The translations under genes were made by a program, and so were the position numbers. This document shows, piece after piece, positions 8,685-62,758 of a DNA stretch of 64,000 nucleotides. Under the pieces are notes generated by a model, which was not told the DNA's origin, made no database searches, and worked only from the letters and a program-made list of their open reading frames with translations. Each line of letters starts with the position of its first letter. Position 1 is the stretch's first letter. Source of the stretch: Candidatus Prevotella equi. GTDB lineage: Bacteria; Bacteroidota; Bacteroidia; Bacteroidales; Bacteroidaceae. The stretch covers positions 1-64,000 of the forward strand of contig JAGHTW010000054.1 of the NCBI GenBank assembly GCA_018065145.1, given 5' to 3'.

Positions 8685-10541
8685 ATGGAAAAAATGAAAA
8701 AATTTGCATACAAGGAGAAACTGACATCTACCAAACTCAACAAAATGGTCGACGCAGTAAATGCGAAGCCAGATGTCGTGTTTCTCAACGAGTATGAGGC
8801 AGGAGGTAAGGTATTGCCGACACTGAAAGCGAAATTCCTGTATTTTGACGAGGAAATGGGCGACGGTGAGACTTATATGACACACGGTCGTACTATCTAC
8901 GATATTCACAACGAAATCGCAGAAACACCAAAGTATTACCATGTCTTCTGTTGCGCCCACGACAAGGAGCAGAGTGGTGACGGTAATGGCTACATCTACA
9001 TCGTCTACGACGACACGCTTAACTACGTCCGTACATACCGTATTGAGCAAGGTATTGGGGAAATTCCTATGGTAATCCTCAGAGCGTTCGGAGAAGATAA
9101 CGCTTTCTCCGACCTCTCCAACCTTTCGGCAGAAGGAGAGGAGAAGATAAAGGACTTGATTGGTGATATTGCTTTCAAAGAGGAGCGTATCGAAATATCT
9201 CTTTCTACTGATTTCGGCGTAATAAATTGGTTGGGCAAGAATGTTAAAATAACAGTAGGTTCAACGGAGAAAATTCGTCCACTTGATGCACATGGTCATT
9301 TAGTGCTATGGGTAAGATTTGGCGAGACTTATACAATCACGTTCCCAGAGGTTGAAGGATATAATGCTGTTGACCCTGTTTCGTACACAGCCGAAGAATA
9401 CGTCAGAGTTGTTGCTGCTCACTACAGAAAGCATTACGACGACCTGCGTGATGTAGCACGTTCCTTTGTGGTAGAAGCAAGTCCTAACCCAGAGATTGAG
9501 GTTACAGGCAGTGAGGAGGTGATTGACCGCATACTCTCGCATGGTGCATACGTCATTGACGAGACGAACAAGAAGTACGCTCGCTTGTCAGAGACTGACA
9601 GCAACACCTTTGAGGATGGAACACCTTGGAATGGCATCTACGGCAACGCTTTCCGCTATCTGCCACAGATATACGTTCTTCGTGACAAGGACTACACCGA
9701 TGGTGGCACGAAGTATTGGGTTAGCGATAAGCCGATAGGCGATGTAGAGCCACTGCCAGAGTCATGGATTGGCATGTATAAGGGCAGTTACATGGATAAC
9801 GTGCTGCGCTCTATCCCTAACGTAATGACGCAAGAGACTCAAACGATGTCGCAATTCTGGAATGCAGCGCAGCGTTTAGGTGCTGACTATGGTCTTGTAA
9901 ACTATTTCGACCATCAGAAGCTCAACGCTCTGCATCTTGCGAAGTTCGGTAATATGAATAGCGATGTTACTGTAGGTGAAGGCTTGTGCAACGCTGGTCA
10001 AGGATATTGGAATCACCGAACAGGCACAACGGCAGCACTTGGCAACGGAACAGGCACTGCGCCATATCTCAACACATCATTCCGAATGGTTAGGCTCTTC
10101 GGCATTGAAGACCTATTCGGCACAACGTGGGAGTTCAGACCAAACATTCGCTTCGATGGTGGCAACGCCATTGTCTATGATGGCAACGTCGTAAGCAATT
10201 CAGCACAGGGCAAGCGTATCTTTGGAAGATTGCAGACTGCGAGTCAACAGTACATAATGAATATGGCTCTTGGTGACGATTTCGACTTGGTGGCTGTTAA
10301 TGCAAATGGTGCAAGTGCAAGTACATACTGGTGTGACGGAACATGGGCTGCAAGTACAGGACAGATCCTTCGCGTTGGCGGTGACTCGATTCGCGGTTCG
10401 ATTTGCGGTCTCTCGTGCTCGGAATCGGATGGCGTGTTCTCGCTCTCGTCTGCGTCTGTCGGTGCTCGCTTGGCTTTCAAAGGCGATATAAACGACTACG
10501 AACTCGTAAGCGGTGCAGAATTGGCGGCACTTCATTCATAA
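8685..10541 (+). CDS. DGR variable protein (C-type-lectin/FGE-like C-terminus), putative receptor-binding or tail protein
   Basis: C-terminal RLFGIEDLFGTTWEFRPNI...YWCDGTWAAS...GSICGLSCSESDGVFSLSSASVGARLAF, with VR at the C-terminus matching a nearby TR and adjacent RT. Confidence 0.88.
   Translation: MEKMKKFAYKEKLTSTKLNKMVDAVNAKPDVVFLNEYEAGGKVLPTLKAKFLYFDEEMGDGETYMTHGRTIYDIHNEIAETPKYYHVFCCAHDKEQSGDGNGYIYIVYDDTLNYVRTYRIEQGIGEIPMVILRAFGEDNAFSDLSNLSAEGEEKIKDLIGDIAFKEERIEISLSTDFGVINWLGKNVKITVGSTEKIRPLDAHGHLVLWVRFGETYTITFPEVEGYNAVDPVSYTAEEYVRVVAAHYRKHYDDLRDVARSFVVEASPNPEIEVTGSEEVIDRILSHGAYVIDETNKKYARLSETDSNTFEDGTPWNGIYGNAFRYLPQIYVLRDKDYTDGGTKYWVSDKPIGDVEPLPESWIGMYKGSYMDNVLRSIPNVMTQETQTMSQFWNAAQRLGADYGLVNYFDHQKLNALHLAKFGNMNSDVTVGEGLCNAGQGYWNHRTGTTAALGNGTGTAPYLNTSFRMVRLFGIEDLFGTTWEFRPNIRFDGGNAIVYDGNVVSNSAQGKRIFGRLQTASQQYIMNMALGDDFDLVAVNANGASASTYWCDGTWAASTGQILRVGGDSIRGSICGLSCSESDGVFSLSSASVGARLAFKGDINDYELVSGAELAALHS
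10366..10480 (+). repeat. DGR variable repeat (VR)
   Basis: 115-nt ungapped match to 10601-10715 with 18 mismatches, 15 at TR adenines. Confidence 0.95.
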
Positions 10542-10600
10542 GGTGTTTAATTATGCAAAATAATAATCATATCATTTAATAATAGGCAGAAGAGTGTAGC

Positions 10601-10715
10601 TCCTTCACGTTGGCGGTAACTCGAATAACGGTTCGATTTGCGGTCTCTCGTGCACGTACTCGAATACCGTGTTCTCGCACTCGTATGCGAATATCGGTGC
10701 TCGCTTAACTTTCAA
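10601..10715 (+). repeat. DGR template repeat (TR)
   Basis: tccttcacgttggcggtaactcgaataacgg...tcgcttaactttcaa; adenine-specific differences to VR, 235 nt downstream of VR. Confidence 0.95.
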
Positions 10716-10866: not shown

Positions 10867-12204
10867 ATGCGTGGAAAGAACAGAAAGATAACACTCGCAC
10901 AGGTATATGACATCAACAATGTCAGAGCTGCTGATTTAGAAGCGAGGAAAGGCAAGGCACAGAACTATGGTGTAAGGAAATTCGACAGGAACAAGGAAAG
11001 TAATCTGATTGCTATTTCCGAAGCCATAAAGAACGGTACTTTCAAGACAATGCAACCAGTCTTTGAAGAGCGATACTGCGACAAGAAGGTACGTGTGCTT
11101 TCAAAAGTACATTATCCTTATCATGTGGCACATCATGCGTTAATGCGCGTTATAATGCCAGTTCTTGAAAAAGGCTATTACTACGAGAGTGCTGCAAGCA
11201 TTAAAGCCAGAGGTATTCATTACAGTGTAAAACATGTGCGTAAATGGATAGATTTGCATAGGTCACAGGCTTTATGGTGGGCGCAGGTTGACTTTAAGAA
11301 GTTCTATCATCACATCAACCGCCAGAAACTCTACGACCGCCTTTGTAAGACGTTCAACGATGAAGGTATAAGGTGGATGCTCCATGATATAATATGGGCG
11401 TTAGGAGAACACAATGGTATAGAACCGTCCGATGGGACTGAGGGCGTTGGTATAGGACTGTACCCTATACAACCTCTTGTTAATTTCTATACAGGAGATA
11501 TGGTGCGAGACGTTAACAGTATCAAAGGAATAAGACTGTTTGTGTATTGCGACAATAATCTTATATTGGGTACTTCTCCTGATTCTGTATGGGAAGCAGT
11601 AAACAGGATAAGATTTTGGGCAGACAATATACTGCGTCAACCTATTCACGATAATATAGGAGTCCAGAGGCTTGATGAAGTCCATCCAGTAGATTACTGC
11701 GGTTATCTATTCTTTCGTGAGCATACGCTTATAAGAAAATCCACGAAATACAAATTCAAGAAGAGATACAAAAAGACTATTAATGACGAAGTTAAGCATA
11801 GACAGGTGTTGGCATCGTATAAAGGTTGGCTTGAACACTGCAATGGTTTAACTCTTTGGCAGAAAGTTACTGGTATGAAACGATTTAGCGAATTAGGAAT
11901 ACAGCGTGGCACTATGCTACGTGACGGAAAGAAATTCTTTGACGTACCTTCGGTATCTGCGTCATTTCTTGTTGACAGAGATATAATAGTGAAAGACTTC
12001 GCTGAAAATTGCGACACTGGAAATGGTAAAGGACGAATGTATGTATTGGTGGAAGAGAACGGAAAAGAAATGAAGTTCTGTACTAACAATCCACGCTTAA
12101 AAGATACACTAAAACAAGTACAAGAACTTGGAGAATTACCTTTCAAGGCGACATTTCACGTTCGTAATACGCAAGGTGGAAGACCAGATTATTATTTTGA
12201 ATAA
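10867..12204 (+). CDS. DGR reverse transcriptase
   Basis: RT motifs VDFKKFYHHI, GLYPIQPLVNF (DGR-style Q motif), FVYCDNNLIL, DYCGYLFFREHTLIRKSTKYKFKKR; adjacent to TR. Confidence 0.92.
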   Translation: MRGKNRKITLAQVYDINNVRAADLEARKGKAQNYGVRKFDRNKESNLIAISEAIKNGTFKTMQPVFEERYCDKKVRVLSKVHYPYHVAHHALMRVIMPVLEKGYYYESAASIKARGIHYSVKHVRKWIDLHRSQALWWAQVDFKKFYHHINRQKLYDRLCKTFNDEGIRWMLHDIIWALGEHNGIEPSDGTEGVGIGLYPIQPLVNFYTGDMVRDVNSIKGIRLFVYCDNNLILGTSPDSVWEAVNRIRFWADNILRQPIHDNIGVQRLDEVHPVDYCGYLFFREHTLIRKSTKYKFKKRYKKTINDEVKHRQVLASYKGWLEHCNGLTLWQKVTGMKRFSELGIQRGTMLRDGKKFFDVPSVSASFLVDRDIIVKDFAENCDTGNGKGRMYVLVEENGKEMKFCTNNPRLKDTLKQVQELGELPFKATFHVRNTQGGRPDYYFE

Positions 12205-55286: not shown

Positions 55287-55390
55287 ACTAAAAAAATAAG
55301 GCAAGGTGTTCATTAAGGTCTCGCACACCTCAACTACTTACCATGCCCATTATGTTTCTGTTCGATAGGTGCGAGCTATCTTTATATTTG

Positions 55391-55464
55391 TATGGGAAGA
55401 GAGACTCGAACTCCCGACCACCTCAGCCCAAGTGAGGTACGCTAACCAACTGCGCTATTCCCAT
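55391..55464 (-). tRNA. tRNA-Pro (anticodon TGG)
   Basis: atgggaa/ttcccat acceptor, D and T arms, cctca-cttgggc-tgagg anticodon arm. Confidence 0.85.
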
Positions 55465-55471
55465 AAATAGT

Positions 55472-55543
55472 TGCGAAGGGGAGGCTCGAACTCCCGACCT
55501 CAAGGTTATGAACCTTGCGAGCTACCAACTGCTCTACCTCCGC
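55472..55543 (-). tRNA. tRNA-Met (anticodon CAT)
   Basis: gcggagg/ccttcgc acceptor, caagg-ttcataa-ccttg anticodon arm. Confidence 0.85.
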
Positions 55544-55550
55544 GATATTG

Positions 55551-55626
55551 CGCCCCTTGCAGGACTTGAACCTGCGCCATCCAGACAGATAACTGCCACG
55601 GCTCTAACCAACTGAGCTAAAGGGAC
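55551..55626 (-). tRNA. tRNA-like gene with unresolved anticodon arm
   Basis: gtccctt/aaggggc acceptor, gctc...gagc D arm, gcagg-ttcaagt-cctgc T arm, but no normal 5+7+5 anticodon arm. Confidence 0.6.
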
Positions 55627-55633
55627 TGGTGGG

Positions 55634-55709
55634 TGATGAGAGTTGGATTTGCACCAACGACCTTCGGAGTTACAATATCCGACGCTCTAACTAACTGAGC
55701 TATCTCAAA
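55634..55709 (-). tRNA. tRNA, probable Thr (TGT), with atypical anticodon loop
   Basis: D arm gctc...gagc, T arm gttgg-tgcaaat-ccaac, tcgga-tattgtaac-tccga. Confidence 0.6.
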
Positions 55710-55716
55710 ACCGATG

Positions 55717-55749
55717 CAAAGTTACGACTTTTTTTCTGATACCACCAAA
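55717..55749 (-). promoter_or_regulatory. Promoter TTTG-N21-TAACTTTG driving tRNA cluster
   Basis: caaagtta 55717-55724, caaa 55746-55749 on plus. Confidence 0.6.
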
Positions 55750-60038: not shown

Positions 60039-60457
60039 TGTTTACCCTCCATTTCTCTAAGCGCGATGTCGCTTACATTGTCCATTATTATACCGTTGTT
60101 TCTTTTTGGAGTAAATATCACTTCTACGTCAAGGTGTCGTGTTATCTTTACCTCGTAGAATTTTTTAACAAACTCGTCATTTGCATAACCCTCAACGTAG
60201 GTTTCGTGCTTGATAGCGTGGTAGAGACTGTTGTCGTTGGTGCTGAGTCTAACCCTGCTTCTGGGGTCTACGTGGAACAACGCCGACCATGCACAGATTA
60301 ACTCTATCTCGTGGGCAGATTTGCGTGTGTTCGGGGCAAAATGTTTACTCTTGAGAACTGCCTCGTCTGGATTGCCGTTATATACAGCGTAGCAACCTCC
60401 TCCGTTACCTGTTTCTCGGTCAAAATGACCCTTTACATAGATTTCGTATTCGTTCAT
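60035..60457 (-). CDS. RNase H-fold-like protein
   Basis: IYVKGHFDRETGNGGGCYAVYNG...AHEIELICAWSAL...STNDNSLYHAI. Confidence 0.5.
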   Translation of the reverse strand: MNEYEIYVKGHFDRETGNGGGCYAVYNGNPDEAVLKSKHFAPNTRKSAHEIELICAWSALFHVDPRSRVRLSTNDNSLYHAIKHETYVEGYANDEFVKKFYEVKITRHLDVEVIFTPKRNNGIIMDNVSDIALREMEGKQ

Positions 60458-61425
60458 TGTTCAAAAAGATTTGTTTGTTGTATAAATTGCTCGTCTGGTA
60501 AAACTTTGCCAGTAACTGCTAACATCTTTCTTACGGCTTCCCTATATGTAACGCCATTATTGGTGTAATTCATTATGGCTTTGTAGTATTTAGGGTAGTA
60601 GTGATAAAGAAGGTCAAATCTTACATCGTCGTTGTGATACGCTCCCATAGCGCAACCGACACAACCTGTACGTTCTACGCAACCATAGTATATCTTTGGA
60701 ATTTCCACTTTGTACTTCTTTATGTAATCCCATATATCCTTGTCTGTCCATATTGACAAAGGCAGAGAACTTGACTTTTCTATCGTATCACCGAAGACAT
60801 TGCAACCACCGCGTCTGATATAAGTCTTTTCTCTCAACTGGCTTTCACTTGCCAATGTACCAAGAATAGGTGCAAGTCCATATTGCTTTGCTATACGATG
60901 TGACGGCTCTTTCTTCAATTTGTCGCAACACATATTACTTGTATGATACGGCTCGTCTATTAGGTATCTCCATCGTTTTGCAAGTTTGAACCTACTATCT
61001 GGATTTATAAGACCCAATGCTTTTTTAGACTTTATACAGTTTGGATTTATACGGATAGTATGCACATTTTCCCCCACCTCTTTGCTTACCAGAGGGAAAC
61101 CGTATTTTGCCCAGACTTGTTTCGGTGTTAGTAATGGTCTAATTATCAGTAGTTTACCCCCCCCTAATTCTATTTTCTTTTGTTGTTCTCTGGCAAAATA
61201 TACGAGGTCGGGGTACTCACAACCAGTATTTACGAACACACAAGTCACGTCTGGTTTTACTCTTCTTACGAGGTCTACCAATACACAAGAGTCTTTTCCC
61301 ATGCTCCAAGCCACATAAACCTTACCATTCATTCTTGCAATAAAGTTATCTATGACTTCCAGACTATGATATATTTTCTGGTCGAGCGTCCAATTTTGTC
61401 TTTCCTGTAATGTTTTTAAGTCCAT
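60454..61425 (-). CDS. PAPS reductase-like PP-loop protein
   Basis: VAWSMGKDSCVLVDLVRRV, FVNTGCEYPDLVYF, GCVERTGCVGCAMGAY. Confidence 0.85.
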   Translation of the reverse strand: MDLKTLQERQNWTLDQKIYHSLEVIDNFIARMNGKVYVAWSMGKDSCVLVDLVRRVKPDVTCVFVNTGCEYPDLVYFAREQQKKIELGGGKLLIIRPLLTPKQVWAKYGFPLVSKEVGENVHTIRINPNCIKSKKALGLINPDSRFKLAKRWRYLIDEPYHTSNMCCDKLKKEPSHRIAKQYGLAPILGTLASESQLREKTYIRRGGCNVFGDTIEKSSSLPLSIWTDKDIWDYIKKYKVEIPKIYYGCVERTGCVGCAMGAYHNDDVRFDLLYHYYPKYYKAIMNYTNNGVTYREAVRKMLAVTGKVLPDEQFIQQTNLFEQ

Positions 61426-61436
61426 ATTTCTTTATT

Positions 61437-62165
61437 TTAACAAAAGGCATTCATAACTCTATTTTCACACTCGCTTTGAGTATATGCTAAAACGTATCGT
61501 CTATTTCCTATACGATTGTAGTCACATTCTTCAAGCATATACAGAAAGTCTTCAATAGTATGTCCTTTACCAAGGGTTACTTTTAGTTCGATGATATTAT
61601 CAAATACAAAATACTCCCCTATAAAATGGTCGTATAGATATACTTTCTTGTCCATATCTATCCTATCCCATTTTACTCTGGTGACATTTTGGCGAATACC
61701 CTCCTGTACGTCATTGACTTGTGAAAGATATTTTTCACGAATGACATCAAAGTTTCTGTGCTTTTTCTTTCTCTTCATAGCACATTGAACCATTCTGTCT
61801 ATGATAAAGTCTTCTGATATTTCGTTCATCTGAAGAACTTCCTCGTTTGTAAAACGAGCGACATACATTTGTTTGTCGTGTATTATCTTTTCTTTTTCTC
61901 GGTCTATTTGTTGCTGTTCCGCAGTATTGTGTTCAGCACCGTCTATTTCGACGTATATTCGCAGTTTTGGAAGCCAAAAATCAAAGAAACACCACCTTGT
62001 ACCAAACTTGTAGTTTGTCTTCTCTCTCATAAAGTAGACATTCGCTTTTGTTAAAAGTTGGGCAAACTTTGTTTCTGCTTCACTCTTTTTGTTCTGGAGT
62101 TTCAATCTTAATTGATTCGTATTCTCCTTAATAAACTTTTCTGTACTTTTACTGTTATTTATCAT
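61437..62165 (-). CDS. DUF559/Vsr-like endonuclease domain with uncharacterised C-terminus
   Basis: SEAETKFAQLLTKANVYFMREKTNY...FDFWLPKLRIYVEIDGAEHN. Confidence 0.7.
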   Translation of the reverse strand: MINNSKSTEKFIKENTNQLRLKLQNKKSEAETKFAQLLTKANVYFMREKTNYKFGTRWCFFDFWLPKLRIYVEIDGAEHNTAEQQQIDREKEKIIHDKQMYVARFTNEEVLQMNEISEDFIIDRMVQCAMKRKKKHRNFDVIREKYLSQVNDVQEGIRQNVTRVKWDRIDMDKKVYLYDHFIGEYFVFDNIIELKVTLGKGHTIEDFLYMLEECDYNRIGNRRYVLAYTQSECENRVMNAFC

Positions 62166-62204
62166 ATTCTCTATATTTTAAGAAATAAAAACTGAAACAT
62201 CTAA

Positions 62205-62655
62205 GACTCGGTTGTAAAGACCCCTTAAGGCGATGAAAAATCGTCTTTTTTAACCTCAAAAGGTCTAAACTCTTTCTGACGACACCGTCGACTTCGGAGG
62301 GGACGACCACAAACTACTGCTTCTTCCCATAACGGCTTTGTTGTTAGCTCAACCTGTACACGCTTCCGTTCTTAACCTGCGTTGCCCTTGGTACAGTTCC
62401 CTGTAGGCTTCATCGTTTGCAGTCCCCAGTGGCTTCTTACTTCACGTTGACAAAAAGACTGCGATGGTCTAATGTGACGGTATTCTCCTTTGTTCCTTCT
62501 CCATTTCGCTCGGTTGGGACACAAAAAGAGAAGCCGTCTTCGGACAAGTAGCGGATTGTCTTCGGACGGCTTCGTATATGGATGTGCCTCTTATGTGGCT
62601 TCACCTTGTTTCTTAACCTATCTCGTGATTACGACCGCTACTCCGTATCATTTGA
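62205..62655 (-). ncRNA. Candidate large structured ncRNA
   Basis: ~450-nt ORF-poor segment behind promoter 62661-62691 (-); 44-nt hairpin at 62530-62573 with 9-bp outer stem, symmetric loop and inner stem. Confidence 0.45.
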
Positions 62656-62660
62656 CGGTG

Positions 62661-62691
62661 CAAAGTTACGACTTTATTTCTTGTCGTCAAA
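62661..62691 (-). promoter_or_regulatory. Promoter TTTG-N19-TAACTTTG driving candidate ncRNA
   Basis: caaagtta 62661-62668, caaa 62688-62691 on plus. Confidence 0.7.
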
Positions 62692-62737
62692 ATATTTTTA
62701 CAATTTTTAAGAAAAAAAAGTTTCTCGGTTATTAGCA

Positions 62738-62754
62738 CCCCTACATAGTAGGGG
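62738..62754. terminator. Stem-loop CCCCTAC-ATA-GTAGGGG
   Basis: Perfect 7-bp hairpin between 62759-63022 (-) and promoter. Confidence 0.5.
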
Positions 62755-62758
62755 CTGT

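Follow-up and report, generated by a model that had tools for sequence, protein, structure and literature searches.

The stretch of DNA analyzed here (the window) is the first 64,000 bases (1-64000) of a phage contig of 70,748 bp that is part of a metagenome-assembled genome. A terminase, a portal, tail proteins, a primase-helicase, and a reverse transcriptase are encoded in it, which confirms a tailed phage, and its relatives are phages of Bacteroides, Phocaeicola, and Parabacteroides. Promoter type and relatives together point to a host among the Bacteroidales. A gap of 593 bp (62166-62758) separates a gene of 87 aa from a DUF559 nuclease gene; in and next to it, the following features are found, listed in the order of transcription:

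62661-62691, minus strand: Bacteroidetes-type promoter TTTG-N19-TAACTTTG, an exact match to the pattern
62210-62660, minus strand: putative RNA gene of about 450 nt (no gene-like ORF, no Rfam family, homologues in four phages)
62627-62649, minus strand: hairpin H1, GAUACG(GAGUAGCGGU)CGUAAUC, with the kissing strand AGUAGCGG at 62635-62642
62530-62573, minus strand: hairpin H2, GAAGCCGUC-CGAAGACAAUCCGCUACUUGUCCGAA-GACGGCUUC, with the loop strand CCGCUACU at 62547-62554
62487-62527, minus strand: hairpin A (U-run stem, bulged G, 3-bp stem, inner pair, and loop GAGCGAA[AC]U at 62503-62511), from covariation and the covariance model R1
62406-62420, minus strand: motif B, GCAAACGAUGAAGCC, whose CGAUG (62411-62415) can pair with CAUCG (62462-62466)
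62218-62266, minus strand: 3' hairpin AGACCUUUUGAGG...CCUUAAGGGGUCU, the probable end of the RNA, as read from the sequence and a predicted fold
61437-62165, minus strand: gene for a DUF559 (PD-(D/E)XK) endonuclease-like protein of 242 aa (Pfam DUF559, E = 9e-8; PHROG homing endonuclease, E = 2.5e-6)

The RNA probably extends from about 62655-62660 to about 62210, both ends being estimates. A preliminary description of this DNA had drawn attention to the locus, and what it reported of the raw sequence holds. The minus-strand promoter that it called near-perfect fits the pattern exactly; the stretch that it regarded as the longest in the late half without a plausible ORF is the longest ORF-free gap there, with only short minus-strand ORFs (50-55 aa, starting with GTG or TTG); and its inverted repeat was found exactly at 62530-62573, where it forms H2. 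The GC content, described as raised, is 47.2% compared with 42.0% for the contig, a value reached by 8% of 450-bp windows, and it clearly exceeds that of the other intergenic gaps, the tRNA cluster excepted. The promoter pattern occurs at 11 sites in the window against 1.7 expected, a number that none of 100 shuffles reached. Among the sites in the contig, the closest match to the promoter of the RNA is that of the tRNA cluster (55717-55749), which is 92% identical over 26 bp.

All 4227 families of Rfam 15 were compared by cmscan with the window at the gathering threshold and with the locus at E up to 10. At the gathering threshold, the window contains only four tRNAs and no tmRNA, RNase P, 6S, intron, HEARO, or other family, in agreement with the earlier statement that hallmarks of tmRNA, RNase P, and 6S RNA are lacking. 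At E up to 10, the locus gives only two matches, to eukaryotic snoRNAs on the opposite strand and far below gathering. The fold energy is unremarkable compared with shuffles (z = -0.56 for the minus and -1.12 for the plus strand), and since fold energy alone is thus not special, structure can be established only by comparison with relatives.

The window has further features outside the locus. A diversity-generating retroelement (DGR) consists of repeats at 10363-10480 and 10598-10715 (plus strand) and a reverse transcriptase at 10867-12204; of the 118 positions of its template and variable repeat, 19 are different between the two, and 15 of these 19 fall on an A of the template, while the variable repeat forms the end of a tail protein gene (8685-10541). 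A comparison of the contig with itself excludes that the RNA locus is a DGR template or a repeat copied elsewhere in the contig. The contig starts with a tandem repeat (6-198) with copies of 85-115 bp that are 77-80% identical, and a cluster of four tRNAs (55390-55710, minus strand) comprises Pro, Met, Thr, and one with a two-base anticodon call (ARAGORN).

Homologues in related and distant phages

A blastn search of the locus against 50,697 phages and 100 related genomes returned chance fragments only, and a search of IMG/VR with its flanking proteins as bait gave no relatives. Relatives were gathered through alignments of TerL and primase; the terminase alignment led to 80 related contigs, many of the long ones being read whole. 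By-eye comparison with IMGVR_UViG_3300028533_000004 (G357) revealed, at the corresponding position of that phage, an ORF-free stretch behind a promoter that contains the motif ACCGAGCGAANTGGNNAA. This phage and the window also have in common motif B, about 100 nt beyond the first motif, and the pair of A and B occurs in no other of 21 phage records. Pattern scans for the loop together with motif B gave chance matches apart from G357.

In addition, a screen for two hairpins with complementary loops, in which the motif was left unused, was applied to 60 ORF-free regions behind promoters in 50 phage records. Dulem virus 40 (PP511379.1) ranked top in this screen, followed by G354 and the window. 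Its hairpin A was noticed only after the motif-free screen, so that it counts as independent support. A pattern derived from the window, G357, and Dulem virus 40 led to two further members in IMG/VR, G394 and G395, where the promoter lies 138-153 nt upstream of the motif; the other new pattern matches are without a promoter. There are five homologues, namely the window, G357, G394 (L372), Dulem virus 40 (L327), and G395 (L385), which is a small set, and three of them were found through the motif itself. The four outside the window are all likewise preceded by similar Bacteroidetes-type promoters.

With TerL identities to the window of 60% and 53%, G357 and G394 fall into the same phage family as the window, while Dulem virus 40 (27%) and G395 are distant and outside of it; no TerL was found in the 39.5 kb of G395, which has almost nothing in common with the window phage. 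In 2.2 Mb of phage DNA, the covariance model R1 recovers the five members and scores nothing else credibly. It matches the window, which is one of its building sequences, at E = 5e-11, and in about 1,190 genomes related at the level of genus, order, or phylum it finds only the locus of the window itself and weak chance matches. Three matches of 26-30 bits in genomes (L388, L389, and L390) were rejected: no such promoter was found with them, and L389 and L390 lie inside coding genes. In LoVEphage, whose terminase is 57% identical to that of Dulem virus 40, the best R1 score is 15.4 bits (E = 7.5), which is not credible. The RNA family is rare, phage-borne, and patchy.

The nearest phage by terminase (67%), G354, carries at 5952-5390 (minus strand; L152) a promoter, a kissing pair (p = 0.003), and a rightly placed U-run, and the R1 search recognized no hairpin A at this locus. 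Such a kissing architecture without hairpin A means that either the RNA evolves very fast or G354 carries something else. A similar stretch in G348 (67119-67708, or more narrowly 67148-67708, plus strand, the latter being L026 7148-7708) is promoter-led and ORF-free and has two hairpins with complementary loops (kissing p = 0.08). Since hairpin A is absent despite the homologue-like architecture, neither was accepted as a member, and these two candidate stretches are either divergent members or a different RNA. A motif common to the window and G348 (GCUAAC..GCC..GUUA) was dropped because it failed to generalize. Complementary stretches were also seen in promoter-led regions of G344, G383, and G391, and regions common to G376 and G391 were noted. 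G392 (24903, minus strand) and G393 (37290, plus strand) have in common a promoter-led ORF-free region of about 470-600 nt (L351 and L354), 83% identical over 170 nt, in which no similarity to the RNA of the window was detected.

Paired changes, loop complementarity, and coding potential

In all five homologues, the stem of hairpin A opens with the U-run, carries a bulged G at the same place, and continues through a 3-bp stem and an inner pair to the invariant 9-nt loop GAGCGAA[AC]U. In the alignment, where one N was inserted in the L385 loop to keep the columns in register, 7 of the 12 pairs are changed on both sides, and 98.3% of the cells are paired, compared with 77.1% in shuffles. The covariation score of 0.758 is attained by none of 500 shuffles and drops to 0.2 when the partner is slid by one column. 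For four of the five sequences, hairpin A is also the minimum-energy prediction when they are folded alone. These paired changes between copies show that the fold of hairpin A is kept by natural selection. A consistent pairing partner of the invariant loop was not found in the 3' part of the five RNAs.

Upstream of hairpin A, the loop strand of H2 in the window is complementary to the strand in H1, and a U-run lies directly 3' of H2. A 5' strand complementary to the H2 apical loop over 8 to 12 bp is present in all five homologues, with letters that differ each time: the strand reads AGUAGCGG in the window, UUAUCGCCACAA in G357, GUAGGAGC in Dulem virus 40, UGGAAAAU in G395, and, in G394, AACGAACUG plus AAGGCAC (by eye). 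H2 was picked by eye per sequence and is defined by its stem, so the test of the loop is separate from the stem. Compared with shuffles, the kissing pairing has p = 0.012 in the window, 0.0007 in G357, 0.008 in Dulem virus 40, 0.034 in G394, and 0.029 in G395, which combine to a Fisher p of 9e-7, and when all strands are tabulated against all loops, the own partner is best in four of five rows. H1 is a plausible hairpin in four of the five and weak in L385, where the 5' strand lies in no clear hairpin. The H2 loop of the homologues begins 76-104 nt downstream of the promoter, and the U-run follows immediately after H2, except that G357 has one additional hairpin between them. H2 and the U-run look like an intrinsic terminator, about 95-190 nt past the promoter, and could halt transcription at about 140 nt.

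The 250-300 nt from hairpin A to the 3' hairpin have diverged past alignment, with the exception of motif B in the window and G357. Outside of the window, motif B is found in G357 only, in the form GCAAACAACGAAGUC, with CGUUG/CAACG in place of CGAUG/CAUCG. In this 3' half, which spans over 250 nt, there is no helix for which every homologue gives support. Long hairpins near the 3' end can be made out by eye in the homologues too, and judged from promoter and 3' hairpin, the RNAs of the family are about 410-560 nt long.

The preliminary description had named two outcomes that would speak against an RNA, a lack of conservation or covariation in relatives and homologues that look like a decayed protein-coding gene, and both were examined. 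No conserved ORF exists among the five homologues, and the only significant peptide similarity, which is also the only conserved stop-free stretch, lies over hairpin A. One frame there gives a similar peptide around ER[TN] in all five, which would fit a remnant of, or an overlap with, a small protein gene, as would the GenBank record of Dulem virus 40, where three short hypothetical proteins (XCD03652, XCD03662, and XCD03685) overlie the RNA or its promoter (L327 27999-28522, minus strand; PP511379.1 64999-65522). However, this frame has 18 codons and no start in G357 and about 31 codons in G394, and the codons for Glu and Arg (GAG CGA) show no synonymous variation, which is the opposite of coding conservation; the base changes are compensatory instead. 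We therefore give hardly any credence to a protein gene, and the three Dulem virus 40 proteins are probably spurious. The structured phage RNA that had been proposed is supported by four homologues, by the compensatory pairs, and by a pairing of 5' strand and H2 loop that is kept with differing letters.

Relation to known RNAs and possible function

Promoter at the right distance, pairing of the 5' strand with the H2 loop, and hairpin A are found together in all five sequences, and no paper describing such an RNA family was found in searches of open-access PMC articles. By these features of its sequence, the locus is the founding member of an undescribed RNA family that is absent from Rfam. 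The preliminary description had mentioned ROOL and GOLLD and their occasional closeness to tRNAs, and neither kinship nor closeness is supported here. ROOL often occurs near tRNA islands, a frequent rather than a strict feature. The nearest tRNAs are about 7 kb away from the RNA in the window and in Dulem virus 40, and none were detected in G394 and G395. The ROOL and GOLLD models match neither the locus nor that of Dulem virus 40, even at E = 10, so that kinship is unsupported. ROOL is an RNA nanocage of phages and prophages, and GOLLD a 14-meric one (PMC12286853). The new RNA shares with ROOL that it is a large structured phage non-coding RNA with its own transcription unit, kissing-loop pairings, and a partly divergent sequence (PMC12286853). 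It differs from ROOL in that it has no model match, no adjacent tRNAs, and another conserved motif. GOLLD, too, is a large phage RNA that has kissing loops and is better conserved in one part, but many GOLLD RNAs exceed 800 nt and are conserved in their 3' region, whereas the new RNA has about 410-560 nt and is conserved in its 5' part (PMC12286853). As far as can be told, the new family resembles the large structured phage RNAs and belongs to none of their families.

Other systems offer partial parallels. The put RNA of phage HK022 is an antiterminator with two consecutive hairpins, and two successive hairpins also follow shortly after the phage promoter here. Unlike in put, they precede a U-run, have complementary loops, and are followed by about 300 nt more; homology was compared via Rfam only. 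The guide RNAs of IscB (HEARO) and TnpB are structured RNAs that adjoin a nuclease gene, as does the new RNA. The nucleases, however, are of unrelated kinds, one homologue is without any, and there is no Rfam match.

These neighboring genes bear on the function. Downstream of the RNA lies, in the window, the DUF559 gene, which probably encodes a homing-type nuclease and seems not to belong to the RNA, and, in G394, a gene for a DUF559 protein that is 39% identical (E = 2e-41). The next gene is an HNH nuclease in G357, an RNase H in G395, and an 88-aa protein without family in Dulem virus 40. The order is RNA-DUF559-PAPS reductase in the window and PAPS reductase-RNA-DUF559 in G394 (60454-62165, minus strand, and L372 2242-5014, minus strand, respectively), and that the three occur together in two phages could conceivably reflect a thiolation or DNA-modification island.

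We consider it fairly probable that the phage has here a free-standing gene whose product, about 450 nt long, is a structured non-coding RNA acting in trans. Such a structural RNA is suggested because the locus has its own promoter, is much longer than a leader, and has an invariant loop on a changing stem, and because the downstream genes differ (DUF559 twice, HNH, RNase H, and one without family). The host RNA polymerase would transcribe the RNA from its own Bacteroidetes promoter, and the 5' domain would fold through pairing of the 5' strand (in the H1 loop in most copies) with the apical loop of H2. Hairpin A would then offer its invariant loop as a docking site for a partner, either protein or RNA, while the divergent 3' half would close in a hairpin, either for protection or for termination. 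During infection, the RNA would serve in trans as a scaffold or structural element. Production of the full-length RNA, action in trans, and partner binding by the invariant loop are what we infer from these features.

The main doubt about action in trans comes from H2 and the U-run, and the best rival is a cis-acting leader of the attenuator or antiterminator type, which we regard as rather unlikely. Here, the 5' strand, H2, and the U-run would make up a terminator that the kissing pairing renders stronger or weaker, and hairpin A, whose stem is made from the U-run, would be the read-through form, thereby controlling the downstream nuclease gene. The placement of the U-run right after H2 (or, in G357, after the adjacent hairpin), at about 95-190 nt from the promoter in all five, is consistent with this, as are the double use of the U-run as 5' arm of hairpin A, a nuclease as the next same-strand gene in four of five cases, and the lack of an obvious Bacteroidetes promoter between the RNA and the nuclease gene in the window. 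It is countered by downstream genes that are non-homologous save for DUF559 in two, by the ORF-free distance of about 250-300 nt from hairpin A to the gene, which includes a separate 3' hairpin and is far beyond the needs of a leader, and by the geometry of hairpin A, whose 5' arm overlaps the U-run only and not H2, so that the hairpins are not mutually exclusive as in a classical attenuator. Hairpin A lies beyond the U-run and is under selection, which indicates that the read-through RNA matters whether the RNA acts in trans or as an attenuator.

With a stem that varies and a single-stranded loop that is strictly invariant, hairpin A has the look of a binding site for RNA or protein, and the RNA might accordingly be a decoy, sponge, or antisense RNA whose loop pairs with a conserved host RNA or which titrates a host protein or small RNA. 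As no consistent partner of the loop was found within the five RNAs, we hold this to be very unlikely. The DUF559 gene directly after the RNA in two phages and the HNH gene in a third could be read as a sign that the RNA serves the neighboring endonuclease as a guide or cofactor, like the RNAs of IscB and TnpB. Yet the nuclease folds are unrelated, Dulem virus 40 has no recognizable nuclease there, and a variable guide segment is not apparent, which makes this role highly improbable. Free-standing homing nucleases, among which DUF559 and small HNH proteins are typical, often settle beside conserved loci, and homing nucleases next to a conserved locus would fit unrelated nucleases at one place better than a guide RNA system.

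The loops of H1 and H2 could pair intramolecularly or between two molecules, and the sequence fits both. An unlikely extension is that the family represents, after ROOL and GOLLD, another class of self-assembling phage RNA, in which these loops would join copies into a type-specific RNA-only particle that displays the GAGCGAA loops to capture a host component. To our knowledge, ROOL, GOLLD, and similar large phage RNAs have no known function, and there are few points of comparison. An unrelated family from Bacteroidales phages, with an invariant loop and a self-matching pair of loops, would provide two small mutable handles on binding and assembly. Since Dulem virus 40 sits in GenBank with short proteins placed over its RNA, the family has probably been missed elsewhere.
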